In this document: piece after piece, positions 4,995-20,968 of the stretch
How positions within the stretch are numbered: position 1 is the first letter of the stretch
Layout of the letters: every line of letters starts with the position of its first letter
NCBI RefSeq assembly: GCF_000003605.2
Contig: NW_003144470.1
Span: 1-22,449, forward strand
Reading direction: 5' to 3'
DNA: 22,449 bases
Source of the DNA: Saccoglossus kowalevskii
Lineage: Eukaryota; Hemichordata; Enteropneusta; Harrimaniidae
The notes under the pieces: generated by a model
The model's input: the letters and a program-made list of their open reading frames with translations, nothing else
Database searches by the model: none
Told to the model about the DNA's origin: nothing
Position numbers and translations under genes: made by a program

Positions 4995-5070
4995 GTTATC
5001 CCTCTATCACTATATTATTGTCTCAAATCTAATCAAGTCAAGTTGGCGGCGGAAGGCGCTACTATTCTTC

Positions 5071-5180
5071 ATGGACTGCATACGGCTTTTGCGGCCCGAG
5101 GTTGTGCAGCGGAAGCGCCCGAACTTGCGAGGGCGCGTAAGCCGTACGACATAGGGCAGCAAAAGCCGTATCCAGTCCAT
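5071..5180. repeat. 110-nt two-level stem-loop, GC-rich
   Basis: Left arm 5071-5097 and right arm 5154-5180 are inverted copies matching at 25 of 27 positions (core TACGGCTTTTGC). Inside, GCGCCC (5115-5120) pairs with GGGCGC (5131-5136) around a 10-nt loop. AAGCCGTA occurs twice on the right side (5138-5145, 5163-5170), allowing alternative folds. The size would suit a short hairpin RNA or a MITE core; neither is shown. Confidence 0.75.
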
Positions 5181-5511
5181 AAAGGTTTTATCATATACCT
5201 TATATGAAAAAAAGTCTTTACTTATGTTATTTTTCGCTCGTCTGGCCCAAAAGAAAACCTATTCCATTTAATCTGGGTTTCGATACGGGCATTTTTACTG
5301 GCGCGGTTTATACGATTCTAAACGACGCAAACGCGTCACAACTCTCACACAATGCCACCAAACAAACGAATATATCCACAAATCACGTTTTAATGAAACA
5401 GCAAATGAAAGTAAATTTATAACAATATTTTAACGGCAATAAATACGAACTCATTATATAGTTTCTTTCTTAAGAATGAACACTACACAGTCAAGCTAAA
5501 AAGTTGGTCAT
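5181..5511. other. No gene seen
   Basis: A 72-codon plus-strand frame (5204-5422) runs here without splice or family support. Confidence 0.45.
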
Positions 5512-8846: not shown

Positions 8847-8972
8847 CTAACATGTTCTATCTGCCTTCCGAAATCTTTGAAATACGGTTTGCATCACTGT
8901 CGCGGATTTGCTTAGATCTTCCAATACAGAGTAATACACATCGGTGTTTCTTTCATCAGCAATAGTATTATT
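8847..8972 (-). CDS. Unknown secreted protein, terminal coding exon
   Basis: Acceptor TTTTCTTTGTCAG, 41 codons and TAG. It starts with a second NNT sequon and contains DVYYSVLEDLSKSATVMQTV, a strongly amphipathic helix. It ends with Cys as the last residue. ATTAAA follows 18 bases after the stop. Confidence 0.7.
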   Translation of the reverse strand, partial: NNTIADERNTDVYYSVLEDLSKSATVMQTVFQRFRKADRTC

Positions 8973-10295
8973 CTGACAAAGAAAACATACGTAACAAAGT
9001 TTACAACCGATTAAGTTCAATCTTTGGTTGTTAACAAGCACACTAGCATGAACGTGGACGAGTTTAAGTTGTTCTTTATAGCTCGTACTAATGCATTATC
9101 ATTCTTTGGTTATGAACACTGATGTTCCTACGATTATGCGTGAAGACATATCATATCGGTCCGATTTCTGTTTGAGTCACATTGCATGCACATTTCTGTT
9201 ACTTCTATGTATATTGCATAACGCAAATCTAAATAAAAAAGTACATACCCATACACAAAACTGTGGATCAGCTAATTCAATAGAATGTCGGCATGAATTG
9301 TGTGGTTCATACTCACCGCATGATACCATAGATGTCACCTAGATAAACATCATAGAGTTGTTTACTTAATGATCTCGCCTTTCTTAATAATGTTATACAC
9401 ATTTATCCGCAAATATTCCATTGACAATATTTTGTAAGTTCGGAATCACATTGACTGTGTGCGGTGAATATAGTTAACTCTCTTCACGCAGTGGTGTAGG
9501 TTAACAATTCATTTGATATCGATCGATTACGTTGAATGTTACAAGTGAATTGAAGTAACGATTGTGACATAGTTACAGTTTGTTTTCATACTTACAAAGT
9601 TGTGGATTAGATTGACTGTATTATTTATTGGTGCTATAAGGGACAACACTTCATGTCTCATGTTTTGGGTCCTACCATTCTCATCAATTGCTATCCTAGC
9701 TACCCACGGCAATAACTCAACCAGTTCACACTGATGAACCCACACTTGATTAACTTTCTTTAAACAAAATAAAACAACACAAATCAATCACCTAATTTGA
9801 ACTATTAATAACAAACATATCATCTGGAGTTGTTAAGAGTATAAAATATATGTTGTCGGTTTACAGAATAAATAAATGTAGGAATTAGTAAAATAGTATA
9901 CTCACATTCATACGTTCGTAGCAATCTCTATCAACGTTGTATTTCAAAATCCCAGAACTTGTTCCTTGTGGCGTCTTGTTATGTCTAAATGCCTGAAATA
10001 AATCATTCGAATTTTGAGATTTTGTTTTTGTTATCAAGAAAAGATGATATGGCATAACTTCATGCGACATTGAACATTTGAACGATGGAATAAACGTACG
10101 TACATATCTATTACGAAGAGACTGTACTTCAACTGACCAGTCATTATCATCAACCACCTGTTGACAAAAATTAACGTTCTGTCCGCACATACTCTGTCGT
10201 CTCAGTGCGCTATGCACTAAAGGTGTTGCTTCTGTTACAGAGACGAAATACATCATGGGACCGAGTGCCAATATTCGGAATAGTGTAACATACAT
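8847..10295 (-). CDS. Secreted 225-aa protein of unknown family, six Cys, helical C-terminus; three coding exons
   Basis: I do not recognise the family. Exons 9906-10295 (130 codons), 9596-9757 (54) and 8847-8972 (41 plus TAG) join in phase 0 with donors GTGAGT and GTAAGT and acceptors TTTAAAG and CTTTGTCAG. The ATG is the first base of its exon, directly after CTGCTTTCAG. Residues 1-23 look like a signal peptide ending in SVTEA. Cysteines are at 37, 44, 74, 125, 140 and 225 (last residue), an even number. N-glycosylation sequons are at N106, N175 and N185. Residues 163-184 and 197-218 show heptad spacing of hydrophobics (M163, V167, L170, I174, I181, F184; Y197, L201, L204, A208, M211, F215, F218), so two long amphipathic helices are likely. 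A TATA box and 5'UTR exon lie upstream, and ATTAAA at 8824-8829 follows the stop. A secreted helical ligand is an inference; an unrelated secreted protein remains possible. Confidence 0.75.
8973..9595 (-). other. Intron 3 of the secreted-protein gene
   Basis: 623 bases between two phase-0 junctions. I looked for an additional exon here and found none that keeps phase, but a small cassette exon cannot be excluded. Confidence 0.5.
9596..9757 (-). CDS. Unknown secreted protein, coding exon 2
   Basis: 54 codons, phase 0 at both ends. It begins KVNQVWVHQCELVELLPWVA and contains a predicted helix from MRHEVLSLI to LIHNF with a sequon INNT. The acceptor TTGTTTAAAG is chosen because it alone keeps phase. 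Confidence 0.7.
9906..10295 (-). CDS. Unknown secreted protein, coding exon 1 (signal peptide, four Cys)
   Basis: It starts MYVTLFRILALGPMMYFVSV. The acceptor CTGCTTTCAG abuts the ATG and the donor is GTGAGT after codon 130. It is the longest open stretch in the window. Cysteines at residues 37, 44, 74 and 125. Confidence 0.75.
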
Positions 10296-11168
10296 CTGAA
10301 AGCAGGATTTTGATAGACATGCTTATTTTAAAGTATACGCAATATAGTTTTAAGAACCCACATAAATCAAAAGATTACATAGTAGCAAACACTTCACCAT
10401 TTACGTTTATTGTTATTGCCTATTGATTATAACATCATTTAAAGTCTCAGCGGTTATCGGCTACAAATCACAACTTCGTTAATAGTTCATAAAACAGTAC
10501 TCTACTATTCAGTGCTGCGTGTTGGTATAAGTTAATATTTTATACACGTATAAGGGGGTCGGCCGAGCAACTGAAGTGTATGCATGGCGTTGCTCGGTGG
10601 TCAGTGATTATTTGTACACCATCCACAAAAGTGTACACAAAGGTTAATAATTCTTTTTTTAAAGAACAAATTACTAGAAATTCTGAGACTATTGAAAACG
10701 ATTCCGTTGATCATTATTGGGCACTGAGTTTGTAGATGCGTTAACAGTTTGGTGGTAATTTTACAAAAAGTGTTTGAAAGTGGTGTGTACGTGTGGCAAA
10801 TTGGTTTATGAAATAAAAAGAGTTTCCTGTATTCGCTGTTTAAAATATTAGTGATTACGATCTATTTGTCTCCCGAGTTACAAACACTACTTATAGAAGC
10901 TATTGCATTATTAAATAATCTACAGTGAGTACCTGATACTATAAGAGGCATGCGTAATAGTCGGAAAGTGTCATGAGAAACCAAACGGTTTGTAACATCG
11001 ATCAAGTAACAGTTAAGCTCATTAAAACAATTTCAAGTTATATATTTTTTATTTAAGTTTAGGATGCATGTTTCAATATTGTAATAATAAATTCAATTTT
11101 ATTTAATGATTATTCGGAAATAAAAAAACATAACACAAATTAAAAATAAAGCATTATAGTGTACTTAC
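10296..11168 (-). other. Intron 1 of the secreted-protein gene, with a perfect hairpin
   Basis: 873 bases between the 5'UTR exon and the ATG exon. CCGAGCAAC at 10563-10571 pairs perfectly with GTTGCTCGG at 10589-10597 around a 17-nt loop. No other coding signal was seen. Confidence 0.55.
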
Positions 11169-11224
11169 CTTTGCAAATGGTGTAGCTTCTTCTTGAAGTT
11201 GGTCGAGAGTTGAGTAGAAATAAG
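11169..11224 (-). other. 5'UTR exon of the unknown secreted-protein gene
   Basis: A strong donor CAAAG|GTAAGTAC ends this exon at 11169. The start is estimated about 31 bases below the TATA box. Splicing to 10295 places the start codon at the first base of the next exon. If transcription began further upstream, an ATG at 11234-11236 would start a different frame. Confidence 0.55.
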
Positions 11225-11247
11225 TTGCCACTCCATCGCAGCAACGC

Positions 11248-11255
11248 CTTATATA
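11248..11255 (-). promoter_or_regulatory. TATA box (TATATAAG) of the unknown secreted-protein gene
   Basis: TATATAAG on the minus strand lies about 30 bases before a predicted start and about 80 bases before a consensus donor. A perfect inverted pair CATTTCC/GGAAATG (11330-11336 and 11346-11352), an ETS-core-like arrangement, lies some 75-100 bases upstream. Confidence 0.55.
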
Positions 11256-12681: not shown

Positions 12682-14499
12682 ATACATTGGTTTTACCGTG
12701 TTTTTAACTGCAGTGAAATTTGATTTTGATACTGTAGTAACATTTAACTGTATTCTTGATGTCCTGGGACCGTGTAGAACCTCACATACAAGTACTGCAA
12801 TTGGCTCAAAATCATGGGCTCATTTCAAAAAGCAAACAGAAAGTCAGAACGTTCAATAAATTATCGCTAATATGATGTGTTATTTGGGTTTATGACAAAC
12901 GGAACTCCCTGGGTTGAATACAATTGACCAGTAAATTAATAATTATATTAATGATACAAACTCGATCGAGATATGAATACGTCAGGCGTCATCAAACAGA
13001 ACAATCAGTTCTCATCTAGTCTTGGTTGATTATCCCGCAATTGGCGAATACTACCTCAGACAATTTGCCGTTGTGTTTTAATGATAAACATAAAGGATAT
13101 TACAGGCACTTTTCACTAAATCGTTTATTTTATTCACAGAGGAATATGTCGTGGGCGAAGATAATTCAATTATCGAATGTTTATTTGTTGCAAATTTGCG
13201 GACGCCATCCAGTCGTATTGGTTGGCATGCGTTGACGGCCTAATGAACACACACCGTAGTAGCATACATCGACACGCCCATGATTACGATTTCTATGTTA
13301 GTAGTTTGGATGAATGTAGTGTGGGTAATGTGTATTTTATTCGCCGACCAATATGTTTATGGAGAAATGACTTTCAATTTTCAAAGGTTTATTTGTTTGA
13401 TGTTTATTATTTGCGGACGCCATCCAGTCGTTTTGGCGCGCGCGTTATTGGTCCAATAATAGAAACGCACCGATCATTTGTCTGTGGTAGTAATTCCTTT
13501 GATTTTTGAACTTAATGTGATAATAAAAATTAACCCAGCCTCGATCATCACGTCAATAAATGATGATATTATTAACGCTACTTGTTTTGTGTAGCCCATG
13601 TATGAACAAAACACTACACGATATCAGTAAATACAAATGAAGAAATAAGTAAACGAAAATTGGGAATTTTTCCAAACAAGCAAAGTCGTGATTTCACTAC
13701 GTTATAATTTGCTTCCAACTACGTAAATTGTGTGGAATTTACATCGTAACAACCTACGCCTTCTAAGCTTGGGAAGCACCTAAGACCAATAAGCTAGAGA
13801 AGCCACATACTACATAGTCGTGAATACAATTCAAAGTTCGTAAAATTACGATGTCAGATGGCACTGTCATCAACATATATTTTGTCGACCATTGCTATAA
13901 TGTATATACAGATGTTTATTATGTTGGAAATTAGTGCAACTCTTTTTTTCTATCGCAAAATGTATTAATGTGTAAATTCCACATCTCTGTCGCCCCCCAA
14001 AGACAGTGGTGGAAGAAAAACAACTTTGAACTGTGCAGTATCCTTACACCCACTAACTTAGTCAAATTGTTAGCAAAGATAGACATAGAAGAAACCGGTA
14101 CTCAAGAATTATTGACACTATAAATAAGCATAGAAGTCATGCTTTGTATATTTATGTGACTATATCGGCAATTTGAGAGTGTTGTCATGGTTTGACAGAA
14201 TAAAAGTAAGATAATGCTTATCGAGAGATAATTCCACAACTTCTAGACACAATTTCATACATTACAGAACAAAATTGCTTCAAAAAATAATACTAATGCA
14301 TTACATAATCTAAAATATACTAGTAATATAAGATGAACATTTTTTTAAAGTAAAGAGGGTACTATTAAAAAACCTACACACACGTAGTAAAAAAAGAATT
14401 TTCTGATATTATGACAGGAAGTACATGAATGAAACTTGAATGAATCTTTCCCAGAAAATACCTATTATATCTTGAACATGATTAGGAGTTTTAAGTGTA
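12682..14499. other. No confirmed gene; 23-bp direct repeats
   Basis: Two open frames (13026-13235, 13177-13509) overlap the repeated 23-mer at 13194-13216 and 13409-13431 and lack other support. TTATTGGTCCAATAA near 13445 is a short palindrome carrying CCAAT in both directions. Confidence 0.4.
13194..13431 (+). repeat. Pair of exact 23-bp direct repeats, 215 bp apart
   Basis: The 23-mer beginning ATTTGCGGACGCCATCC is identical at 13194-13216 and 13409-13431. Weaker similarity (TTTATTTGTT before; a GTTG- or GTTATTGG-type stretch after) extends it, suggesting an old tandem duplication or two copies of one element. Confidence 0.75.
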
Positions 14500-15304: not shown

Positions 15305-18300
15305 CTGTGAAAATTGCAATTAACTAGATACAGGTATTAATACTGAGATATCGGAATAAAGTATTCGGAAAATTGAGCGCGGTGGTCATCGCGCAGCGCG
15401 TGTTCGAATATCATGTAAATAAACAATGTATTTTACACGCCTTGTATACGTCGCTATGAGTCCCATATCGAACAGAACACGGCGCGACGACTGCCGCCCT
15501 TTAAGTAAGTTATGGCATTCTTGAGTGTTTTATTATATTGAAATATGTTGAATTGATGAATGGGGCAATATCTTACCTATATATAGCTAGGTTATAACGC
15601 AATTAACTGATACATGTTCCTGGATTGTTGGTTGATTTATATTATTCCTTGACATAATATTACATGATATGAAAAAGTTACTTCATTTAAAAAGATGTTC
15701 AGTGTCTAGATATGAAAATCGTGGTCCATGTCCCTCCCATAAAACTATCCATTATATTGAGTTGCAGTGACAATATTTTAACACTCACATCAATTCACAA
15801 CGTATGACATATGGTTAGTATAAATAAATACACATTCTGTTTCAGGAAATCCCCATTTGATTTGAGCAGTCGGGTCAGTTGATGGTGACATATTACCAAC
15901 ATATTTATCGTATAGTTTCAGTGCCGAAAGACAAATTACAACACTTACAGAGTAAATCTGGGATGGTACCGTACGTATATTGTTGTCCATGGACTGACGC
16001 CACTGCTTCAGTGAATATCTCGCCAACTTTCATCTACAAACAAACATATTATTATTCTTTGTTAATGATGGCTAAGTTTTTATTAATACAATGAAACGGA
16101 CTTGGAATGTAATTGAGATGTGAAACGTGTTTTAGGTATGAACTGAGGAATGTCGATTTTGTATTTATTTCTGCTCAAATTGATGAAGCGAACTGAAACA
16201 GCTACCCAAAGTATTGATTTGTAAATCAACTTCCATTATTCCAGAGTATTTGATGTTATAAGACCGAGATGACCTTTTATTATATGTAGACAATTTTGGC
16301 TTTAAATTATAGCAAAAAAATCATTCAAAAATAGCGCCCTCCACAAGCGTAACAAAGTTAATGCACACGTTTTTTCTGCACACACACGAAAAAATAATCA
16401 TTCAAAAATATTGCCTCCTACAGGCGTAAAAAGGTTAATGCACGCGTTTTTTGCTTTTTACACACACAAATTTTCATTCGACCACACACACGTCATTTTT
16501 AAAAACAAACACGTCAGTTTTAAACACACATTATTTTAAAATACACACGTCGTTTTTAAACACACACGTCGTTTTTAAACACACGTCATTTTAAAAATAC
16601 ACATATCATTTTAATATACACATAATTTTTAAAACACACACGTCATTTTAATATACATATAATTTTTAAAATACACACGCCATTTTAATATACACATAAT
16701 TTAAAATACATACATAATCTTTTAATGCACATACATTTAATGAACACATACACACAACAGTCAATTTGAAACACACACCATTAAAACGCACAGTCACGCC
16801 GTTTTTAAAATGCACACATCATTTTAAAACACACACGCCACGGCCTCCAATACGTACGTAATTTTGAATTATTAGTCCGTTTTATTCTAGTATACACAAA
16901 ATAATCAATTGACATCCCGCGCCCCGTACGCATGCGTCGAATTGCTTACATGATCCTCGTAGTCCTCAGGATATTCTTCCGTGTAGCCCCAGGGATTCAA
17001 CCACATCTGCGAATACGAGTGAATATCCATGAAGAAGACAAACTCTTGTGTTTTTGCTCTCTCTAAAATGAAATCTGCCACGTTTCTGACTTCGACTTCA
17101 GAGTGTGGGTAAGGACCACGGTATGTATCGAAACAAGGAAACTTGCTGGCCCCACTGCCTGTGAATGAACAATACACAACTGACAAAACTAGGATCATTT
17201 CGCTGATGGTCAATGCTTTCTCCATGTACATAGTTGTTGATTTGGACTAGCTAACAGAACGAATAGAATTTAAGGTAGATATGCAGGTTCGTGGGCACTT
17301 GGGAGTGAATTTTTTTTTTTGCTTTTTATTAACCAAACAGTTGTTATGGACTGTTAACATTTTGTAGAATTGTGAATAGTGGAACATACTCAAAGACGAT
17401 TTTAAAATATAGAAAACAGGAACAAACATTCTTTCTTTTGAATGCTTAGCAATATTTAGCAAGGCTGTACATAAATAATAAAAAAAGAAACATTGTGAAA
17501 AAAAGAAATGACGGGATCTCCATATTAAGCACTATATTTAACTTTTAACAAAACGATAATACATTTAAATTTGAAACTGTTACAGCCATTTTAATTATGA
17601 GCATTAGCAAACGTCTTACTGAGTGAATTGTTATGCAAATTAGCAATTATCTCAGCTTATTTTTAGTGCACACCCCAGAACTTTAAAAAAATAGCTCCTA
17701 GACGCTTTGACCTTTTGTTTTGAAATTTTCGCAAATAATTGACAATGTGTTTATCTTCAAAACGCCGTCGGGGTATTGTTTTTGGTTGAACAGTGTTACA
17801 ACAATCGTACAGACAACTAGCCTGGATGTTAATTTATGCATAAACTTGAAGTAGTGAAATTAGAGCCGCTGCCCTGCAAAATTGAAAACTGTCTAAAACG
17901 GCACTTTCTTCATAATAAACAGATGTACCCATAAACCAATTTTGACAGGAAACAGAAGCATGTTTTAGAAGCAAATTTTTTGTAAATCACTTTTGACCCA
18001 AAAAGCACATTTCTGTGCATATTTCAAACTACAGTGTCCATAAAAAAAATACTAACGAAATTTTAAAATTCATACAATAGGCTTTCCGAAAATATATAGT
18101 TTTGTGGACAAAGGAGGTCATATTGGTTTCCTAATTAACTACTTAAAATACCTGTCAGGTAAACTGCATCTCTATCTTAATGAATGGTCGCCATTGTTAA
18201 GAACACTTGGGCGCCTTAGATGAGTGTTTTACTCAAAGAGTTAAGGCGTCTTAATTGACTGACACGACACTGTACATGGTTCAGTTGGGGACTGCACAGT

Positions 18301-20968
18301 GACTCAACTCAATGACCTATCACATCGGTCAGTGTGTCAATGTATATGGGAACCAAGAGAATGGCGTGCAATGCATGCATGGAATGTAGTGCGCCCCCAT
18401 CACAGACAGGACACTGTATACATATATTTGCAACATTTCATTGTATTTTCAGTCACTTTGAGAGACAAGTTAATATAAAACAACGTCCTCTGGTGTATTA
18501 CGTCTAAAGTTGTGTCATAGTTAGTGGAAAATGGTTTCACTTGAAAATGTCTACCTACCTCCCCATTCATAGGCCCAGTTACGATTAGGGTCTACGCCGA
18601 TGCACGTCGAATCGTCATTCACAGACCGAGTCTTGCGCCACATTCGATCCTAAAAAACAAATTTATATCATTGAAGCGAAAATACATACAATTATTTCAA
18701 AAAGAAAATGGGTTTCAATTCAATTTATAATATATAAAAATAAAATAAAAACGAAAGTCTATCATCGTGGTGGCGTACTCACATCTGTCCACGTGTATTC
18801 ATATCCATCAGGATTGGTAATTGGTAGAATGTAAAAATCGAATGTGTCCAGTAGCGTTCTCACAAGATCGTTTGTTGAATAATCGACAAGGAGCTGGTGG
18901 ATATATAACATAATATTACGTGTCGTTATCATGCATATGTATTATTGGTCTTGGAACTAAAATAAACGAAGTGTAATATCAAGATTTGTATGACCAACCA
19001 CAGTCCCCCAACATAGGACTGTGGACCAACCTATATGTTACGTTAGTTTACACTAGTCTCTGTAATATAAATAGTCGAGTGTAAATACATGCATTGTATA
19101 TTACGTAAATAATGTGAGGATGTTTCTTGTTATTAACCTGATTTGTCATCCATGTATTAGTAGCTGGCGTTACCCACTCTCTGGCATGAATACCACTATG
19201 GACCCACATTGCTGGCTTCACTTCACTCGATTCGCTTCCAACCTAAGTAAACAATAGTAGTACATTATCACAAATCACGTGAGACTGAACTGGGTCTAGT
19301 GTCAGACACACAACGATTGATCTCGGGAATATTAACGCTTGTTTATTGTTGCGCCAAAGAAACAGACCATTTATGGTCCTAAGTTTTTAGAAAAAAAATT
19401 ATCCGGAGATGCGTTGTTTTTCAACAATACTTCTATTAGTTGTTTAAATAGTTTGTTTTAAACCCTTTCAATATAAAAAAAATAGGCCAATGGCCTGTTG
19501 CTCAACGGCTATTGTACACAGGATTAGTGCTGTATATGACAAATACCCCAAAAGGCAGTGAGTGAGACAATAAAACATAATGCTAAAAGTGGAATTTTTT
19601 ACAAAAATAACATAAATATTCAATAAAATTAGAATCAAAGAGAGCTTAAAATGAACTCCAGCGTGTTGAGAGAATAACATAACATGATATTTGCAATTAT
19701 TCGTAATAAATGTATATACCAAGTTTTGTTGAAATATGTTGAATGGTTCTTGAAATAGCACCCAAATAGCTTGAATTTCACTAGCTGATATGCAAATTAG
19801 ATAAATTTCCACCAAAAACTAAATATATCTGGAAACTGACCCAACACATCTATGCACCAAGTTTTATTAAAACATATTAAATGATTCTCAAGATATAACC
19901 AAAATAGCCTATATATTGGTATGTAAATTAGGTAATTTGCATAATTTTCAACCAAAATCAATCATGTCTATACACATTTAAATATGTTGAGTGGTTATGT
20001 TTTCATTACAATCACAATAGACCAATCAAAGAAATTGATTTTTTAGTTGAAATTCCATTTTTAAACAAAAATTACAAAAATATTTGCCAAAATTAGAGAA
20101 TTAAAGATATGGCCATGGGATGAACAAATCTAGTAGATGTCAACACATACACACCAAGTATCAAAGCATTCAGGCTACCGATTTTGAAGAAGAAGTCGAA
20201 AATAGAATTTTTGACCAAAAATGACCATTTTAAAATATTCGCCAAAATTAGGAAATTGAAAATTTCCTTACCAAATTAACAAAACTGATAGAGGACAACC
20301 CATGGCACATGCACTATTAATATCAGCACTGTAGACCACTTAGTGTCATAGTAGTATAGATGAAATTTTAGAGTTTTTGGGGCTAATTTGCATAATTTTT
20401 GGCAGATCGACTTCTCATGAACAAATTACCATCTACACTCATCAAGGCATCCACACACCAAAATTCGAGTCAAGCAGTTCGGCGGTTTTTGAGAAGAAGT
20501 CGTACACACACACACACACAGAGACAGACAGATAGACGGACGACAGACGCAGGACAGAAACCCATCCCATAGGCTCAGCGGACCTATGGTCCTATGGTCC
20601 GTTGAGCCAACAATACACGCAATCTATATTTGCGTTTTGGACATGCGTTATAAAGTTGTGCGCCACCAAGAGGCGTCTTTCATCCTTTTTTCGTTTTAGT
20701 TTTCTTTAGTTTGTTTTTCTTCAAATACGCCATTTTTGGCATACTCGATATAATTTGTATAACGCATTTAGAAAAAAAACGAAATATTAGATCACATGAC
20801 GTTCTAAAACACAGTGTGTTGTTTTTATACAACTAAAATATGTTTTGCTCGAGTTAAATGACCTACCTTCAATGCTCTCATTACACGGTTTTCGTACGAG
20901 CTACCAATAACGAACTCTTTCGCTAGTGTTGGGTATCGAGCAGCTGTATCATTCACCCATTGGTCGAT
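15108..20968 (-). CDS. Carboxypeptidase A-type zinc metallopeptidase (M14), 5' partial, seven exons
   Basis: Predicted to remove C-terminal residues from peptides in a secretory or extracellular setting. Seven exons splice in frame to 299 residues: 34, 35, 37, 30, 69, 28 and 64 residues, plus one codon split between exons 4 and 5 and another between exons 6 and 7. Visible residues (bovine CPA1 numbering in brackets): zinc ligands H53 (69), E56 (72) in HAREW and H183 (196) in IHSYSQ; R55 (71); R111 (127) in RMWRKTR; N128-R129 (144/145) in PNRNW; Y235 (248); general base E258 (270) in TELRDTG. The C122-C145 disulfide pair is conserved. Position 255 is Val, which argues for CPA-like (aromatic or aliphatic) and against CPB-like specificity. 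Every junction has GT donor and AG acceptor with consistent phases (0,0,0,1,0,1). Signal peptide, propeptide and about 16 mature residues must lie beyond the right edge. AATAAA signals follow at 15038-15043 and 15019-15024. No stops or frameshifts, so it is likely functional. Confidence 0.97.
15305..15948 (-). other. Carboxypeptidase last intron
   Basis: 644 bases, phase 1. It holds a GC-rich imperfect inverted repeat around 15361-15410 (TATTCGG ... TTCGAATA) and no coding signal for this gene. Confidence 0.8.
15949..16033 (-). CDS. Carboxypeptidase exon, short helical segment
   Basis: 28 codons plus one base, acceptor TTTGTAG, donor [26 protein letters not shown] continues to GTIPDLL, matching the CPA helix and loop that leads to the Tyr248 region. 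Phase 1 donor fits the next exon exactly. Confidence 0.94.
16314..16470. repeat. Diverged ~77-bp direct duplication
   Basis: Two copies (about 16314-16388 and 16389-16470) share ATCATTCAAAAATA, a CCTCC-A-AGGCGTAA-type core, GTTAATGCAC and CGTTTTTT followed by CACACAC. It leads directly into the minisatellite. Confidence 0.75.
16451..16845. repeat. Degenerate ~18-bp minisatellite in a carboxypeptidase intron
   Basis: About 20 variants of ACACACACGTC followed by ATTTTTAAA, drifting to ATACACATA/ATTTTAAT forms in the middle. It fills nearly half of the 16034-16949 intron. Confidence 0.85.
16950..17158 (-). CDS. Carboxypeptidase exon with the third zinc ligand
   Basis: Acceptor TTCACAG, donor GTAAGC; two bases complete the split Gly codon, then 69 codons. 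SGASKFPC supplies the second disulfide cysteine, [14 protein letters not shown] is the conserved linker, and FMDIHSYSQ gives the third zinc ligand. The reading frame continues upstream into the intron as a hydrophobic stretch that is not coding. Confidence 0.96.
17159..18558 (-). other. Carboxypeptidase intron between the NRNW and HSYSQ exons
   Basis: 1400 bases, phase 1. It contains an octamer ATGCAAAT (17633-17640) in AT-rich repeat-like sequence, and an imperfect CGCCTTAG/TTAAGGCG inverted pair near 18211-18249. Confidence 0.8.
18559..18649 (-). CDS. Carboxypeptidase exon with RMWRKTR and NRNW
   Basis: 30 codons plus one base (phase 1 donor GTAGGT). It holds the Arg127-equivalent that polarises the scissile carbonyl, the Asn144/Arg145-equivalents that hold the substrate carboxylate, and the first cysteine of the conserved disulfide. 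Confidence 0.96.
18783..18893 (-). CDS. Carboxypeptidase exon with the NPDGYEYTW motif
   Basis: 37 codons, phase 0 at both ends, acceptor CCACCAG and donor GTGAGT. It ends in [19 protein letters not shown], the highly conserved M14 NPDG segment. Confidence 0.96.
18998..19024. repeat. Perfect 9-bp hairpin in an intron
   Basis: CCACAGTCC (18998-19006) and GGACTGTGG (19016-19024) around a 9-nt loop, inside the 18894-19137 intron. Confidence 0.8.
19138..19242 (-). CDS. Carboxypeptidase exon with the HxxE zinc motif
   Basis: 35 codons, phase 0 at both ends, acceptor TTAG and donor GTTAAT. It carries [18 protein letters not shown]: the two N-terminal zinc ligands (His, Glu) and the adjacent Arg that helps bind substrate. 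Confidence 0.96.
20504..20556. repeat. CA microsatellite followed by a GACA/GACG-rich tract
   Basis: About eight CA units, then GAGACAGACAGATAGACGGA-type sequence, at the right end of the dispersed repeat. Confidence 0.85.
20572..20608. repeat. Terminal hairpin of the dispersed repeat
   Basis: GGCTCAGCGGACC pairs with GGTCCGTTGAGCC with one mismatch; TATGGTCC is duplicated in the loop and right arm. Confidence 0.75.
20867..20968 (-). CDS. Carboxypeptidase exon, first visible (start of catalytic domain)
   Basis: 34 codons, phase 0 at both ends, acceptor TTTAG and donor GTAGGT. It encodes [19 protein letters not shown] followed by VIGSSYENR, matching the early CPA stretch with the conserved G-x-S-Y-E-x-R core. 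It aligns from about mature residue 17, so at least one earlier exon is missing. No convincing earlier exon is visible between 20969 and the window end. Confidence 0.95.

Follow-up and report, generated by a model that had tools for sequence, protein, structure and literature searches.

A probable orphan gene with a corrected exon chain, predicted to encode a small secreted protein, in Saccoglossus kowalevskii

The window (the whole stretch of 22,449 nucleotides analysed here, from contig NW_003144470.1 of Saccoglossus kowalevskii) reads on its minus strand, from 11255 to 8847, as one gene. By hand reading, it starts with a TATA box (TATATAA, 11249-11255) and an Inr-like TTATTTC, which places the transcription start near 11221, and the presumed start lies 34 nt downstream of the TATA box's first T. 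Exon 1 (11169-11226, 5' end approximate) is non-coding and ends in the donor G/GTAAGT, which has the top score among the 1427 GT sites of the minus strand under a generic matrix. Exon 2 (9906-10295) comprises 130 codons, with the ATG as its first base directly after the acceptor, and contains four cysteines, the sequon N106 and a candidate signal peptide (residues 1-23); it sits in a 145-aa frame, the longest among the stop-to-stop frames listed for the window. Exon 3 (9596-9757; 54 codons, phase 0-0) has one cysteine, the sequon N175 and an amphipathic helix, and its splice sites are weak, as on the minus strand 144 of 1022 AG sites and 133 of 1427 GT sites score as well. Exon 4 (9338-9249, VTSMVSCGEYEPHNSCRHSIELADPQFCVW) is an open, AG/GT-bounded segment of 90 nt (30 codons) with three cysteines and with phase 0 on either side of its borders, TATCTAG/GTGACA and GTATGG/GTATGT. 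Exon 5 (8847-8972) contains 41 codons plus the stop codon (8849-8847), the sequon N215, an amphipathic helix (224-251) and a C-terminal cysteine, and its acceptor ranks 6th among the 1022 AG sites of the minus strand.

Generally, GT/AG is found at every junction, all introns within the coding part (3 of 3) are in phase 0, and the spliced chain runs through 255 codons without a frame break. It turned out that the initial annotation, made before exon 4 was recognised, had described most of this layout correctly: the TATA box at 11255-11249, a 5'UTR exon (the non-coding exon 1, which ends at 11169 with the best-scoring minus-strand donor), the ATG with which exon 2 opens, and phase 0, which holds at each coding junction including those of exon 4. 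An alternative start, ATG at 11236-11234, was rejected by hand reading, since it lies upstream of where transcription is expected to begin and would lead into a different frame. The minus strand also carries exon pieces of an M14 zinc carboxypeptidase (20969-16950, ends approximate; Pfam PF00246, E 2.8e-74 for the joined pieces), which as cut begin in more than one frame, unlike those of the orphan secreted gene.

Exon 4 lies within a 623-nt stretch that was first taken as the last intron. In the splice chain proposed earlier, the sites after 11169, 9906 and 9596 and those before 10295, 9757 and 8972 stand, but the intron 9596^8972 contains this extra exon. Accordingly, the product of 225 residues with six cysteines described before is that of the form without exon 4 (mature chain 202 residues, 23.6 kDa), while the product with exon 4 has 255 residues (mature chain 232 residues, 27.0 kDa, nine cysteines). 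Dinucleotide shuffles of the intron produced an exon like exon 4 (90 nt or longer, with splice sites of similar quality) in 0 of 3000 cases and, with another seed, in 2 of 3000, under cut-offs that were chosen after exon 4 had been seen; with looser site cut-offs the count was 50 of 3000, and with looser sites and a length of at least 60 nt it was 138 of 3000. The same search found no comparable exon in the other two introns. Since exons 3 and 4 each have a length divisible by three and lie in phase 0, skipping either one preserves the frame. Exon 4, being symmetric, may be a cassette exon, and since both forms are in frame, the 225-residue product may exist as an exon-skipped isoform.

To judge the chain as a gene, we compared it with shuffled sequences and with other open windows. 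Chains of two exons comparable to 3 and 4 (at least 120 and at least 60 nt) occurred in none of 2000 shuffles, and in 7 of 2000 under a looser length rule (at least 60 nt for both). An ATG open frame of at least 130 codons with AG just upstream was found in 1 of 300 shuffled windows, and in 29 of 300 when AG was not required. A crude splice-chain search over the whole window gave with an intron cost of 10 a best chain that joined exon 2 to exon 5 and skipped exons 3 and 4 (score 16.8; 15 or more was reached by 32 of 400 shuffles, 18 or more by 7 of 400). With an intron cost of 12 the same chain scored 14.8, and 27 of 400 shuffles reached 15. An intron cost of 6 yielded a best minus-strand chain of 84.6 with the exact exons 2, 3 and 4 and without exon 5, compared with 47.7 on the plus strand and with a best of 69.2 (median 43.8) in 120 shuffles, and this setting was set aside and replaced by costs 10 and 12, because its chain runs through the carboxypeptidase and noise and merges genes. 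The search at costs 10 and 12 is of low power, because the carboxypeptidase gene scores poorly in it too. In the codon and amino-acid scoring, open windows of equal length from this sequence, with the exons among them, matched or beat exon 3 in 19%, exon 4 in 56% and exon 5 in 16% of cases, and exon 2 in 31% of only 16 windows; 4 of 5 carboxypeptidase control exons scored positive. In every exon frame 0 outscored the other two forward frames, partly due to stop penalties. The models used for amino acids, codons and splice sites were generic and not trained. The exon shuffle tests favour the chain. The score of the whole-window search is marginal, and the codon composition is unremarkable and gives no help.

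The predicted mature chain, near-neutral and of 27 kDa, carries nine cysteines and three N-glycosylation sequons and would form two or more long amphipathic helices. The N-terminus of the full product is its most hydrophobic stretch (19-residue mean 1.56 vs 1.15 for the best later stretch), with a candidate cleavage site VTEA/TP after residue 23, which we take to be plausible by the -3/-1 rule. The signal peptide proposed by the initial annotation has a plausible site, but its hydrophobic core is not distinctive, being equalled or exceeded at 50 of the window's 184 open ATG starts. The three sequons reported earlier were found again, at residues 106, 175 and 215. Among ten hand-picked, partly overlapping segments, residues 160-188 (p 0.013) and 224-251 (p 0.007) showed the strongest helical periodicity, and these uncorrected values support two amphipathic helices, the number claimed previously, one at the end of exon 3 and one in exon 5; for the presumed first helix in exon 2 (50-71) there was no clear helix (p 0.47). 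AlphaFold models from the single sequence gave a pLDDT of 34.0 for exon 2 alone, and for exon 3 alone helices at 2-13, 16-22 and 36-52 (mean pLDDT 61.7). These low-confidence models cover separate exons, which are parts of the protein, and have no bearing on a bundle.

For the relatives of the product, several collections were searched. No Pfam family matched the 255-aa product at an E cut-off of 10 (filters drop most matches above about 0.1), NCBIfam, a prokaryote library, gave no match, and no PDB sequence was found with the whole product, exons 3-5 or exon 2 at E up to 10, which agrees with the earlier remark that no homology was recognisable. Scans of viral and prokaryote contigs for exon 2 produced pattern matches in 1 and 12 stretches respectively, none of which was confirmed. 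Within the window, tblastn revealed no paralogue (best E 2.2 beyond the exons themselves), and Rfam had no hit at gathering scores. Pfam and PDB are the only collections among these that cover animal proteins, and the absence of relatives says little. The 225-aa product alone matched the Pfam family Rsd_AlgQ (E 0.02; 15.3 bits, where the cut-off is 35). We took this match as chance, because it is under the cut-off, is lost when exon 4 is included, and belongs to what we take to be a bacterial family.

On this basis, the gene is probably real with its exon chain corrected, and the cytokine reading is unproved. The gene is argued for by GT/AG and phase 0 throughout with the top exon 1 donor and the 6th-ranked exon 5 acceptor, by the rarity of exon 4 and of the exon 3 and 4 pair in shuffles, by a TATA box and an Inr-like start, by the periodicity of exons 3 and 5, the model helices of exon 3 and an N-terminal hydrophobicity that no later stretch matches, and by the longest listed stop-to-stop frame of the window, which holds exon 2. 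Against it stand the lack of relatives in the collections searched, the unremarkable codons, the marginal chain score, the undistinctive signal-peptide core and the weak exon 3 sites. Open frames that line up by chance, or a gene in decay, would fit the marginal whole-window score, a composition no better than that of other open windows and the lack of relatives, but we regard this as quite improbable in view of the absence of any phase-0 pair comparable to exons 3 and 4 from all 2000 shuffles, the unbroken frame over 255 codons and the strong first donor beside the TATA box. The explanation that we prefer, and consider fairly likely for gene and secretion together, is a minus-strand gene of one non-coding and four coding exons for a small secreted protein, rich in cysteine and helical in part, without known relatives. 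The sequence, splice signals, open frames and helix-like periodicity are observed, and from them we infer expression, secretion, fold and binding. A signal peptide of about 23 residues would bring the protein into the ER, disulfides would fix the chain, the odd cysteine count would leave one cysteine free (for a dimer, for instance), and the protein may act outside the cell through binding another protein. The single most likely role would be that of a soluble ligand that makes receptor contact through the helix encoded by the last exon, which is a doubtful proposal at present. A secreted, fast-evolving protein without signalling function (mucus, egg or sperm coat, defence or carrier) is a tangible, if tentative, possibility: the product is cysteine-rich and orphan and carries sequons, and its nine cysteines exceed, we believe, those of most helical cytokines, but there is no specific pointer to any single one of these roles, and the TATA promoter and the long helices are neutral toward it. 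This reading and the cytokine reading each describe the same gene more narrowly, and both overlap the preferred explanation.

The cytokine reading holds that the gene, found by its layout and not by its sequence, encodes a class II-like or class I-like helical cytokine of an invertebrate with a bundle of at least four helices, which signals through JAK-STAT receptors. Helices are supported in exons 3 and 5 but not in exon 2, where the first helix would be expected and the model of that exon alone reaches a pLDDT of 34. For class II profiles (IL10, interferon), the 255-aa product had no Pfam match, nor did it match any other cytokine family there, and for the class I type (IL-6, GH, leptin) no Pfam family and no PDB sequence was found. 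By eye, exon 5 may be likened to the last helix of growth hormone or leptin, and this was given no weight. With a phase-0 share near one half, all three introns would be in phase 0 in roughly one gene in eight or nine. An all-phase-0 layout argues weakly for a cytokine, because phase 0 is the commonest intron phase in nearly all genomes, as given in an excerpt of PMC3488318. Class II cytokine genes were sought by five coding exons, phase-0 introns, a signal peptide and helices in the excerpted part of PMC8863823, and the IL-10 family genes, IL3, IL21 and IFNL1 share a common five-exon structure without split codons in that of PMC2654155, where the introns of IL-10-family genes divide helices. 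Class II helical cytokines (IL-10 family, interferon-lambda, interferon-upsilon), as far as these excerpts describe them, are alike in having several exons, phase-0 introns, a signal peptide and helices, and the present layout, with its multiple exons, phase-0 introns, candidate signal peptide and several putative helices, appears to resemble the features of that search. It departs from them in its four coding exons instead of the usual five, its long exon 2 (130 codons) and its lack of a sequence match. Immune-type promoter sites are also few: the 1 kb upstream has no kB, IRF or AP-1 match, one STAT-type match (palindromic TTCNNNNGAA; counted on both strands, 2 vs 0.82 expected) and one C/EBP-type match vs 0.82 expected. 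A helical cytokine is possible for this gene, nothing found demonstrates it, and we hold it to be unlikely.

Known or claimed invertebrate counterparts were compared with the gene by description and not by alignment, each from an excerpt of its source. CgIFNLP of the oyster Crassostrea gigas is said to be class II cytokine-like in shape despite low identity and to have an IFN domain (PMC9756803), whereas the protein here has no Pfam domain. The amphioxus GH-like hormone is a class I-like, non-vertebrate protein of low sequence identity (PMC9010856), and the insect Upd1/2/3 are invertebrate ligands of the JAK-STAT pathway (PMC13203501); the present product has no match to the growth hormone family or to any other Pfam family. 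The excerpted PMC13203501 also reports JAK, STAT and IL6R-like receptors in invertebrates, the last from Mollusca onward, with IL6 and the IL6-family ligands found only in vertebrates, and this speaks for the cytokine reading. It would be a rather unlikely outcome that the gene encodes an invertebrate helical cytokine with an IL-10/interferon-like all-phase-0 layout and no detectable relative, one of the missing ligands of the IL6R/gp130-like receptors reported outside vertebrates. A confirmed helical ligand would help to fill the invertebrate ligand gap. For the present, the gene is another orphan with a predicted secreted product, and its corrected exon chain lends itself to direct testing.

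Besides, several other features were seen in the window. At 16498-16840, AT-rich imperfect direct repeats occur, many spaced 37 nt, with TTTTAAA and ACACACGTC blocks seen by eye, and the stretch at 19780-20600 resembles an interspersed repeat, near whose end (AC)n GACAGACAGA is found (by eye). A near-palindrome with two 54-nt arms (80% complementary, 10-nt gap) lies at 5067-5184 and is perhaps a short mobile element. On the plus strand, an open frame of 114 codons (13165-13509) had no Pfam match at E 0.1, and by eye the phrase TTTGCGGACGCCATCCAGTCG occurs twice in it.
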